Part shown: positions 11,031 through 16,872 of the stretch, piece after piece
Layout of the letters: each line of letters begins with the position of its first letter
Position numbering within the stretch: the first letter of the stretch is position 1
Source of the DNA: Terriglobales bacterium
Lineage (GTDB): Bacteria; Acidobacteriota; Terriglobia; Terriglobales; Acidobacteriaceae
NCBI GenBank assembly: GCA_035573675.1
Contig: DATMAB010000010.1
Span: 248,001 to 312,000 of the forward strand
Direction of reading: 5' to 3'
Length of the DNA: 64,000 nucleotides
The notes under the pieces: generated by a model
Databases searched by the model: none
The model's input: the letters and a program-made list of their open reading frames with translations, nothing else
What the model was told of the DNA's origin: nothing
Translations under genes and position numbers: made by a program

Positions 11031-11666
11031 GTGACTCGGCGAGTGATTCATCCCATCATCCTGGCCGCGGGCCGCTCGTCGCGGCTGGGATTTCCCAAGG
11101 CCACCGCACGCTTCGGGGACCGCACGGCAGCGGAGATCGCGGTGGAGAACTGCGCCGGACTGGCGCGGCCCATCGTGGTGCTTGGGTACGACGCGGCCAG
11201 GCTGCGGAGCGCCGTGCCACGCGCCGCTCGCGTGGTAGTGAATCGCCGCTGGCGGCAGGGACAGACCACTTCCCTGCTGGCCGGCCTGCGACGTGTTCCG
11301 CGGAACGCCGACTTCATGCTCTACCCGGTGGACTTTCCTCTGCTGACGCCCAAGGTGGTCCGTCGGCTGGTAGCGGAGTTCCGGCGGAGGAGCAAGGCGC
11401 AGGTGATTGCGGCTCCCAGCTTCCGGCATCGAGCCGGACACCCGGTGATCTTCGCCGCCAAGCTGCGCCAGGAATTCGAGCAAGCCGAATCTGCGCGCGA
11501 TGTTGTCTATCGCGATTTATCGCGCATCCGGTTCGTTGCCGTGCGCACGCCGGCCATTTGGCTGGATTTCGACACGCTCGCCTCCTACCGGCGTAGAGTG
11601 CGGGACTACGCGCGCTATCATGGGCAGCGCAACAGCAAGACTGCAAGAAAGGGCAGAACACCATGA
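11031..11666 (+). CDS. MocA/MobA-like molybdenum cofactor nucleotidyltransferase
   Basis: 211 residues, GTG start with GGAG four bases before it. The nucleotidyltransferase signature is HPIILAAGRSSRLGFPKAT (7-25), followed by the metal-binding loop YPVDFPLLTP and AGHPVIFAAKL. The family attaches CMP or GMP to molybdopterin; xanthine-oxidase-family enzymes need the cytosine dinucleotide form, so CTP:molybdopterin cytidylyltransferase is the natural call beside a CoxL-like enzyme. Its last codon overlaps the start of the selenoprotein gene (ATGA). The divergent spacing from coxM (159 bases) suggests joint control. Confidence 0.85.
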   Translation: MTRRVIHPIILAAGRSSRLGFPKATARFGDRTAAEIAVENCAGLARPIVVLGYDAARLRSAVPRAARVVVNRRWRQGQTTSLLAGLRRVPRNADFMLYPVDFPLLTPKVVRRLVAEFRRRSKAQVIAAPSFRHRAGHPVIFAAKLRQEFEQAESARDVVYRDLSRIRFVAVRTPAIWLDFDTLASYRRRVRDYARYHGQRNSKTARKGRTP

Positions 11667-12259
11667 AGCCGATGTTCCTCGAAGAAATCGAACAGGCGCA
11701 AGGCTCGGGCCCGCACGCGGATGCGGTCCGGATGATGCAGTCCGCGGGCATGGTGGTGCCGCAGATCCTGCACCTGTTCAAGTACAAGCCCGAGGCGACG
11801 CAACACCTGGCGCGCTTCACGCAGGCGGTGATGCGCGGCCCCTCGCCGCTCGCGCCCGGCATGCGCGAACTCATCGCAGCCTTCACTTCTGCCCAAAACC
11901 ACTGCCCGTTTTGAACCGGGAGCCACGCCGCGGTCGCGGCGGAACTGCTGGGAGGCCGGGCGCTGGTCGATGCGGTGCTGCGCGACTACCGTTCTTCCCC
12001 GCTGGCGGAGAGGGACAAGGCGCTCTTCGCGTTCCTTGCCAAAGTAAACAGCAAGTCCTATGAGATTGAGCCCTCGGACGTGGAGGCCGCGCGCCAGGCC
12101 GGATGCAGCGAGGAAGCGCTCTACGACGCCATCACGGTCTGCTCGCTGTTCAACTTCTACAATCGCTGGTGCGACGCCGCCGGCGTGCAGGACATGCCGC
12201 CGGAGGCCTACGCCGCCTCCGGGAAGCGCCTGGCGAAACACGGCTATACCGGCGGCTAA
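11663..12259 (+). CDS. AhpD/carboxymuconolactone decarboxylase-like selenoprotein (in-frame UGA read as Sec84)
   Basis: The frame is open for 198 codons except for one TGA at 11912-11914. Around it the protein reads RELIAAFTSAQNHCPF-U-TGSHAAVAAE: this is the AhpD-family motif E-x11-C-x2-C-x3-H with the second Cys replaced by UGA, giving C81-x-x-U84. Sequence similarity to the family continues after the TGA in the same frame to the proper C-terminus, so this is not a random stop. A hairpin with a GGUC loop lies 18-21 bases after the TGA, as in bacterial SECIS elements. AhpD-type proteins are peroxidatic or disulfide-relay enzymes. The start overlaps the MocA-like stop. Automatic annotation would split it at 11914. 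Confidence 0.85.
11915..11946 (+). promoter_or_regulatory. Candidate bacterial SECIS element
   Basis: Stem CGCCGC (11926-11931) and GCGGCG (11936-11941) closes a GGUC loop (11932-11935); AG/CU (11921-11922 with 11945-11946) may extend it below a small internal loop. In E. coli fdhF the SelB-binding loop also contains GGUC at nearly the same distance (about 19-22 bases) from the UGA; this comparison is from memory. Located inside the coding frame, as bacterial SECIS elements are. Confidence 0.75.
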
Positions 12260-13173
12260 CGGATCCGCTTGGGGCGCCGAGAAGCGGCTCCTTCCGCCAC
12301 GTTCAGCTCCGCCACCTGGTTCATGGTCTTCGGGACCCAGGTCGGGTGTCTTTCCCAGAGGATGGGATCATGGCCGGGCACGATGCGCCGCGTCTCTCCC
12401 TTCAGCGTCTGCCGGATGCGGTGGTAGGTGTAGATCTGATTGAAAGCGTTGCCCTGGTTGTAGCCGGGCGGCCACATCATTTCGACATTCGAGTACCAGT
12501 AAATCGTGTCGCCGACAATGGCGAAGGGCCCGTTGCGTGTACGCACCTGGAACCACTGGGTTCCGAACGTGTGCGAATCCTTGGCCAGATGTGCGGTAAC
12601 GCCGGGCAGGACCTCGGCGTCCCCGTGGATGAAAATGATACGGCCATCGGCTGCACCCTTGGAGGCCTTCTTGAGATCTTCGGGATCGAAGGAGGAGAAG
12701 ATCCAGGAGGTCTCTTCTTTTTCGCCGATCTGGCGCGCGAAGCTCACCGCCTGCAGCCACCCCATGTACTCGTCGAGCTGGACGTACAGCTTGGCATTGG
12801 GAAAGGCCTCGAAGTTCCCTATGTGATCGAAGTGCATGTGCGTGCACAGGATCACTTCGACATCCGCCGGTGAGAACCCCACGCGGCCGAGCACCGTCTT
12901 GGGCTCCTCCCAGTGGGAGAAGGCATAGCGCTTGAGCCACTTGCGTTGTTTGAAGCCGCAATCCACCAGCGCGATGTGCTTTTTCCCGCCTACCTCCCCA
13001 CCCACGAGCAGGGTGTAAATCATAGGGATCTTGATGATGCCTTTGTTACTGAAGGGACCTGAGCCACCGAAGAAGTCGTACGGCATATCGGCCTGGCAGT
13101 AAGCCAGGGACCAGATGGAATAGTCGGTGTCGCCGGCGGGATGAACGGCGGACCTGCGGGCAGCGGGAGTCAT
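12256..13173 (-). CDS. Metallo-beta-lactamase-fold hydrolase (N-acyl homoserine lactonase-like)
   Basis: 305 residues. Metal motif THMHFDHIGN gives H112, H114, D116, H117; GDAEVLPGVTAHLAKDSHTFGTQ and IVGDTIYW supply the later His and Asp, and RIVPGHDPILWERHP the last His. The layout resembles lactonases of the AHL lactonase family. AAGGACCAAAAG precedes the ATG. It is the last gene of the ring-cleavage cassette, 13 bases after the aldehyde dehydrogenase, so hydrolysis of a lactone or enamide intermediate is a reasonable guess. Its end overlaps the selenoprotein end by four bases (convergent). Confidence 0.85.
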   Translation of the reverse strand: MTPAARRSAVHPAGDTDYSIWSLAYCQADMPYDFFGGSGPFSNKGIIKIPMIYTLLVGGEVGGKKHIALVDCGFKQRKWLKRYAFSHWEEPKTVLGRVGFSPADVEVILCTHMHFDHIGNFEAFPNAKLYVQLDEYMGWLQAVSFARQIGEKEETSWIFSSFDPEDLKKASKGAADGRIIFIHGDAEVLPGVTAHLAKDSHTFGTQWFQVRTRNGPFAIVGDTIYWYSNVEMMWPPGYNQGNAFNQIYTYHRIRQTLKGETRRIVPGHDPILWERHPTWVPKTMNQVAELNVAEGAASRRPKRIR

Positions 13174-13186
13174 CTTTTGGTCCTTT

Positions 13187-14677
13187 CTAGAGCTTCACGC
13201 AGACGGTCTTGGCTTCCGTAAAGAATTCCAGGCTGTGGCGGCCGCCTTCGCGGCCGATGCCGCTTTTCTTGTAGCCGCCGAAGGGCGTGCGCAGGTCGCG
13301 CACCATCCAGCAGTTGATCCACACAATGCCGCTGCGCAGGCCGGCCGCTACCCGATGAGCGCGCGCCAGGTCGCGAGTGCAGATCACGTTGGACAAGCCG
13401 TACTGGGTAGCGTTCACAAGGCGCACGGCTTCCTGCTCTTCGCGGAACGGCTGCACGGTCACCACGGGACCGAAAATCTCCTCGCAACAGACGCGGCTTT
13501 CTTCGTTCACCCCCGTGATGACCGTGGGCAGGTAGAAATTCCCGCGCGGCAGATCCGGGGGAGGCCCTCCGCCGCAATGCAGGTGCGCGCCTTCTTCGGC
13601 CGCGAGGCGGACGTAACCCGCCACCTTCTCGCGATGTTCTTGGCTGATGAGCGCCCCCATCTCCGTGGCCGGGTCGAGCGGATCGCCGAGGCGGATCACC
13701 CGCGCCGCCGCGGCCAGCCGTTCGACCAGCGCGTCGAGAATCCCTGCCTCGGCCAAAATGCGTGAGCCAGCCAGGCAAACTTCCCCCTGGTTCTGGAATG
13801 CGGCCCGTTGGAGGATGGGCAGCGTCTGCTCGAGGTCAGCGTCAGCAAAGACGACGACGGCGCCCTTCCCGCCCAGTTCGAACGAAAGCCGCTTGAGGCT
13901 GGAGGATGCGGCTGCCATGATGGCCCTGCCGGTGGCGGTTTCGCCGGTGAAGGAGATCAAGTCCACGTCCGGATGGCGGCTCAGCGCTTCCCCGGCGGAT
14001 TGCGGGCCGAATCCCTGAACGACGTTGAGCACACCAGGGGGAAGACCCGCATCGCGGCCGATGTCGGCCAGCCGCGCGGCGGTCAGCGGTGTCAGCTCCG
14101 CCGGCTTCAGCACGCAGGTGTTTCCCGCCGCCAGGCACGGAGCGACCTTCCACGTGGCCAGGTACAGCGGAAGGTTCCAGGGCGTGATCAGCGCGGCCAC
14201 TCCCGTCGGCTCGCGCAGCACGTAGTTCATGGCCCGGCCGTCCATGGAGAAGAATTCAGTGTTCGTGCTTTTGATGAGGTCGGCGAAGAAGTGGAAGTTG
14301 TAGGAGGCGCGCGGGACGTCTATTTCCAGGCTTTCGCGGATGGGCTTGCCGGTGTCGAGAGTCTCCAGGCGCGCCAACTCCTCGCGCCTCTGTTCAATGA
14401 GATCGCCGATGCGGTGGAGCACCCGGGAGCGCTCGGCCACAGCCATGTGCGGCCAGGGACCGCCCTCGAAAGCCTGGCGCGCGGCACGGACGGCGGCGTC
14501 GACGTCCGCGTCACCGGCTTCGTGGACCAGCGCCAGACGCTCGCCGGTAGCCGGATTCGTGGTTGCGAACATGCGGCCGCTGCGTGCTTCCACCCACTCG
14601 CCGCCGATGAACAAGCGCACGTCGGCGCGCGCTACCTCTTCTCCACGGTCGACATGAGGGACCGGGCTGGCGCTCAT
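13187..14677 (-). CDS. Aldehyde dehydrogenase (2-aminomuconic/2-hydroxymuconic semialdehyde type)
   Basis: 496 residues, full length. NAD-binding TPWNLP (N168), K191 in VLKPAE, the general base E267 in FELGGKG and the nucleophile C301 in NQGEVCLAGSRI are all present. The context (directly after a RidA-type deaminase and class III ring-cleavage dioxygenase) fits 2-aminomuconate 6-semialdehyde dehydrogenase (AmnC-like), oxidising the ring-cleavage product with NAD+. The start overlaps the RidA stop by four bases. Related hydroxymuconic semialdehyde dehydrogenases cannot be told apart by eye. Confidence 0.9.
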   Translation of the reverse strand: MSASPVPHVDRGEEVARADVRLFIGGEWVEARSGRMFATTNPATGERLALVHEAGDADVDAAVRAARQAFEGGPWPHMAVAERSRVLHRIGDLIEQRREELARLETLDTGKPIRESLEIDVPRASYNFHFFADLIKSTNTEFFSMDGRAMNYVLREPTGVAALITPWNLPLYLATWKVAPCLAAGNTCVLKPAELTPLTAARLADIGRDAGLPPGVLNVVQGFGPQSAGEALSRHPDVDLISFTGETATGRAIMAAASSSLKRLSFELGGKGAVVVFADADLEQTLPILQRAAFQNQGEVCLAGSRILAEAGILDALVERLAAAARVIRLGDPLDPATEMGALISQEHREKVAGYVRLAAEEGAHLHCGGGPPPDLPRGNFYLPTVITGVNEESRVCCEEIFGPVVTVQPFREEQEAVRLVNATQYGLSNVICTRDLARAHRVAAGLRSGIVWINCWMVRDLRTPFGGYKKSGIGREGGRHSLEFFTEAKTVCVKL

Positions 14678-15114
14678 TGCGGCTCACCTTCGCGAAGCAG
14701 GCAGGCTACCGCCTTGATCTCGATGGCGTTGTTCCCAGGTAAAGACGCGGCCCCGACCGTAGTTCGCGCCGGGCGACGGCTGCCGAACACCTCCGCATAA
14801 ACCTCGTTGTAGGCAGGGAAATCCGTCATGTGGAGCAGGAACACGGTGACGTCCACGATGTCCTCGAGTGTGCCGCCGGCCGCGCGAACCACGGCTTCCA
14901 GGTTGGCGAGGGCAGCGCGAGTCTGCTCGCGGATGTCATAGGATTGCAGGCTGCCATCCGCGTTGAGGACCACGCCGCGTTCGCGGCCGGTGGCGGGATC
15001 GCGCGCTCCCTGCCCGGAAATGAACAGCAGTTGCCCTGCCCGGGCGGCGTGCGCATAGGCGCCCAGAGGCCTGGGCGCAGCCTGGGTATCGATGCGCTGG
15101 GGATCCTGTTTCAC
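14674..15114 (-). CDS. RidA/YjgF-family protein (2-aminomuconate deaminase-like)
   Basis: 146 residues. RidA features: GAYAHAARAGQLLFISGQGARDP, EQTRAALANLEAVVRAAGGTLEDIVDVTVFL, FPAYNEVYAEVFGSRRPARTTVG (the Arg before TT binds the substrate carboxylate) and NNAIEIKAVACL. RidA proteins deaminate enamines or imines; the AmnD deaminase of 2-aminophenol degradation belongs to this broad group. Its place between the dioxygenase and the dehydrogenase genes supports removal of ammonia from 2-aminomuconate. Confidence 0.88.
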   Translation of the reverse strand: MKQDPQRIDTQAAPRPLGAYAHAARAGQLLFISGQGARDPATGRERGVVLNADGSLQSYDIREQTRAALANLEAVVRAAGGTLEDIVDVTVFLLHMTDFPAYNEVYAEVFGSRRPARTTVGAASLPGNNAIEIKAVACLLREGEPQ

Positions 15115-15125
15115 CTGCTCTCCTG

Positions 15126-16872
<1,747 letters not shown>

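Follow-up and report, generated by a model that had tools for sequence, protein, structure and literature searches.

Does the UGA codon within the AhpD-like gene at positions 11663-12259 (plus strand) of the window, i.e., the whole 64,000-nucleotide stretch of DNA analysed here, terminate translation, or does it encode selenocysteine (Sec)? We conclude that residue 84 is almost certainly Sec, with the UGA decoded via SelB and a downstream hairpin to give an AhpD-fold enzyme with a CxxU site. Comparisons of sequences suggest that the selenoprotein is actually made.

An AhpD-like gene with an in-frame UGA

Translation of 11663-12259 with TGA treated as a residue yields a single frame of 198 amino acids, a peroxidase-related protein of the TIGR01926 type, with one TGA at codon 84 (11912-11914, plus strand); the same codon is UGA in relatives. 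The residues around it are ELIAAFTSAQNHCPF-U-TGSHAAVAAELL, and translation and alignment place a C-P-F-U active-site motif, Cys81 to Sec84, at 11903-11914 (plus strand). The first-pass annotation of this DNA had put the single in-frame TGA on the second Cys of the AhpD motif, with a Glu 12 residues before the first Cys, a His four residues after the UGA, and a frame that stays open to 12259; the translation bears out each of these, with Glu69 12 residues N-terminal of Cys81, and His88 four past U84. AhpD active sites have the spacing Glu-x11-Cys-x2-Cys-x3-His. The protein thus has the CxxU motif, preceded by a Glu and followed by a His (E69, C81, U84, H88), that marks membership of the family, and C81, C84 (with Sec taken as Cys) and H88 are invariant columns in the orthologue alignment. 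With Cys at the UGA residue, the joined protein scores 98.3 bits against the TIGR01926 "peroxidase-related enzyme" model, for which the cut-off is 81.8, and the matched region, residues 10-177, runs across the UGA codon; Pfam CMD is also matched, and all 26 members of an alignment of orthologues match TIGR01926.

A mechanical ORF scan with the standard table cuts the gene into two ORFs, the two broken pieces that had been predicted for standard pipelines, and any gene caller that stops at UGA would split such genes in the same way. A second mechanical scan found 13 sites in the window where a C-x-x-TGA or TGA-x-x-C type motif is flanked in both directions by 50 or more open codons; judging from their translations, the other 12 are off-frame shadows of other genes. 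Given 13 comparable open frames, and a fold energy for the downstream RNA that is unremarkable (see below), the weight of the argument comes from the family match and from conservation rather than from the open frame.

The gene had been proposed to encode a selenoprotein of an unannotated type, a description that does not hold, since the AhpD-like/TIGR01926 CxxU family has already been published. AhpD-like selenoproteins were first reported from the Sargasso Sea in 2005 (PMC1088965), were found to be frequent in GOS in 2008 (PMC2398784), and appear as "AhpD-like protein, TIGR01926, CxxU" among the selenoprotein families listed in a 2026 review (PMC13188914). The protein described here is a well-supported addition to this family, and not a new type. 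It shares with the family (COG2128/TIGR01926) a TIGR01926 score above the cut-off, a CxxU motif with Sec in second position, and a SECIS directly downstream; we found no difference of kind in a comparison with the published descriptions of the family, whose deposited exemplar is MCB9421940.1. Members of the present orthologue group come mainly from MAGs of Acidobacteriota and Gemmatimonadota, and the gene is a clean, well-conserved example of a family of selenoproteins that is common among the uncultured representatives of these phyla in soil and groundwater. The NF041238 family (AhpD_rel_CFYUT) belongs to the same superfamily and has a CxxU site, but the similarity is partial: the protein scores 45.3 bits against a cut-off of 175, and the NF041238 model has 357 positions, compared to 198 amino acids here.

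A covarying hairpin downstream of the UGA

A SECIS-type hairpin lies at 11926-11941 (plus strand), with a 6-bp stem, CGCCGC/GCGGCG, formed by 11926-11931 and 11936-11941, and a GGUC loop at 11932-11935. The loop occupies nucleotides 18-21 past the UGA, with 17 nt separating the two, as in the first-pass annotation. The published bSECIS model calls for a 3-9 nt loop with G in the first two loop positions, a 4-16 bp stem, a distance of 16-37 nt from the UGA, and an MFE of -7.5 kcal/mol or lower, and has an N1-N2 pair around G[G/U]N (PMC13188914). The hairpin at 11926-11941 agrees with all four bSECIS criteria and has the flanking N1-N2 loop pair of this model. It differs from the Escherichia coli fdhF SECIS, which has a bulged U17, in having no such bulge. 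In the folding check proposed alongside the hairpin, the 57 nt 3' of the UGA have an MFE of -28.5 kcal/mol. The folding energy is unremarkable for such GC-rich DNA (z = -0.98), and the hairpin is not unusually stable given its composition.

Energy alone could not settle whether the hairpin arose by chance, and we reject that explanation on the basis of covariation, which supports the proposal that the hairpin is a SECIS. Across 84 distinct sequences, every one of the six stem pairs is present in 81-84, with compensatory changes such as C-G to U-A, and in one relative the stem has been rebuilt through several paired changes (CACAGC/GCUGUG). The second loop base is G in all 84 sequences. The two bases that flank and close the loop are G-C, A-U or G-U in 82 of the 84, compared to a mean of 67 after shuffling, and none of 5000 shuffles reached 82, although the sequences are related and the figure is hence not a strict probability. 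The same coupling can be seen at the level of codons: among 63 sequences coding for HAAVAA, GCG occurs with GTC in 46/46 cases, and GCA with GTT in 17/17. This switch between G-C and A-U at the loop-flanking positions, across 84 distinct sequences, provides support from natural variation for the published N1-N2 loop pair. A regular hairpin is not kept in Cys-form orthologues.

Selenocysteine machinery and conservation of the UGA

The genome that holds the window (3.16 Mb, 99% complete) was searched for Sec machinery one family at a time. It encodes SelA (564.8 bits), SelB (357.6 bits; cut-off 242), SelD (369.2 bits) and a tRNA-Sec with anticodon UCA, the last identified with Rfam (69 bits) as well as with ARAGORN. 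A search for selA, selB, selC and selD had been recommended, and their absence named as grounds for giving up a Sec reading; the full set is present in the same genome. The selD gene (L021, contig C27, 396936-397865) itself carries a UGA within its frame, as part of an AGUASK motif, which we take to be the known Sec form of SelD. Two more AhpD/CMD-type genes in this genome have a UGA at CxxU (L002, 1501-1752, HCPYU, on contig C12; L003, 1501-1683, GCPFU, on contig C27), which, from sequence, puts the apparent number of AhpD-type selenoproteins in this genome at three or more. Among the genome's matches to a molybdopterin-binding domain, none contained a UGA.

Among the 100 related genomes searched, ten have an orthologue (54-89% identity) whose aligned codon is likewise UGA, and five more distant orthologues in this set have Cys at that position; alignment with these Cys-containing homologues, as had been suggested, places the UGA on a Cys of the redox site. 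All 11 UGA-form genomes, including the one studied here, have selA above the cut-off, and selA is missing from three of the five Cys-form genomes. A TGA-containing AhpD-like match was found in 51 of 77 genomes with selA, compared to 1 of the 23 that lack it (Fisher p = 7e-8), a count for which the TGA position was inspected in only part of the more distant matches. The lone genome with a TGA but without selA, G018, has a Cys form in which the TGA is an ordinary terminator. With the alignment as the query, 80 loci (55-65% identity) were retained from the GTDB contigs, and all but one, 79 in total, have UGA at codon 84. Record titles assign these loci to Acidobacteria, Gemmatimonadetes, Deltaproteobacteria, Planctomycetota and others, although the name of a single MAG contig is no proof of phylum.

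These data bear on two alternatives to Sec. The first is that the UGA is decoded in some other way, by near-cognate readthrough to Trp or Cys, or through genome-wide reassignment of UGA. We regard this as very improbable, because the UGA aligns with Cys solely at the redox site, the genome has complete Sec machinery that includes tRNA-Sec with anticodon UCA, the SECIS-like hairpin obeys the published loop rule, and, among the searched genomes, absence of selA goes with a Cys form or with no match at all. The second and even less credible alternative, that the gene is a pseudogene or the product of a sequencing error, with the UGA a true stop, has in its favour the standard table and the two ORFs of the mechanical scan, but is refuted by the occurrence of the same UGA in orthologues from many independent assemblies, by the covarying hairpin, and by conservation downstream, where dN/dS relative to the sister species is 0.14 (0.04 upstream of the UGA), indicating purifying selection. 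The decay of the reading frame past the TGA that might have been expected in close relatives was not seen in any. Hence, the proposal that the UGA encodes Sec in an AhpD-like CxxU enzyme is strongly supported by the sel genes, conservation of the codon, and the covarying hairpin.

In a gene tree, Cys forms are nested within UGA clades, which suggests loss of Sec to Cys within the AhpD-like family; given a low support of 0.66 and a poorly rooted tree, we make no claim of such loss. In one relative (L144, 1738-2325) the first Cys is gone and the motif reads Thr-x-x-Cys (TPFC) rather than Cys-x-x-Sec, and several relatives have tandem Cys-form AhpD-like paralogues (G091:C9, G036:C12, G056:C34, G035:C11).

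Predicted function and gene neighbourhood

An AlphaFold2 model of the protein is all-helical (pLDDT 93.7) and matches the AhpD-type peroxidase-related structures 3C1L, 2PRR, 6K40 and 2PFX. These share with it the fold and the E...CxxC...H site, at ~24-28% identity, but have Cys where the present protein has Sec. Mycobacterium tuberculosis AhpD (1GU9) has the same Glu/Cys/Cys/His spacing, but is a weak match to the model (E 0.48); AhpD works with a lipoylated partner. By homology and from the model, the protein has an AhpD fold. We propose that SelB, loaded with Sec-tRNA(UCA), binds the hairpin, which lies 12-27 nt past the UGA, and that this complex would insert Sec at the UGA instead of allowing termination, yielding an all-helical AhpD-fold TIGR01926 enzyme with the redox pair Cys81-Pro-Phe-Sec84. 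By analogy, the enzyme is likely to be a thiol/selenol peroxidase or a disulfide reductase. Sec84, the partner nearest His88, would most likely be the attacking residue, acting on a peroxide or disulfide substrate, and Cys81 the resolving one, converting the selenenyl intermediate to an Se-S bond that a cellular thiol system would then reduce.

The gene start is overlapped, by ATGA, by a gene for a MocA-like nucleotidyltransferase (11031-11666, plus strand), an arrangement kept in the sister species, G001. Adjacent in the window are CoxL/M/S-type molybdenum hydroxylase genes and CoxG. It is conceivable, though unlikely, that the selenoprotein is a dedicated accessory factor of this hydroxylase, in cofactor maturation or peroxide protection, a role that would be compatible with Sec; the overlap in both species and the adjacent CoxL/M/S/G genes would fit. 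By contrast, in the flanks examined (up to about 6-10 kb, less where a contig ends), neither mocA nor hydroxylase genes accompany a single one of the 80 named orthologues, and the same is true of the more distant UGA-form relatives among the searched genomes. We therefore reject a conserved operon with molybdenum genes, and a role as hydroxylase accessory cannot hold for the family in general. The overlap had been taken to tie the gene to the molybdenum hydroxylase locus; that link holds for both members of the genus and fails for the 80 distant orthologues, and is thus local to the genus.

The minus strand at 12256-16872 encodes a metallo-beta-lactamase-fold hydrolase, a 2-hydroxymuconic semialdehyde dehydrogenase-like enzyme, RidA, and two LigB-type extradiol dioxygenases. 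Beside the Cox-type hydroxylase, this cluster looks like one for the catabolism of an aromatic compound by meta-cleavage, the substrate possibly being a nitrogen heterocycle. A more specific scenario, to which we give slightly less credence than to an accessory role as such, is that within this genus translation of the selenoenzyme is coupled to that of MocA, and that the enzyme specifically serves the adjacent molybdenum hydroxylase of an aromatic meta-cleavage-type pathway; if so, a Sec enzyme would have been recruited to the maturation or protection of a molybdoenzyme. Lastly, five relatives have a same-strand MFS transporter gene ~2.4 kb or less from the AhpD-like gene, which is a UGA form in two of them (L063, L064) and a Cys form in three (L065, L066, L067).
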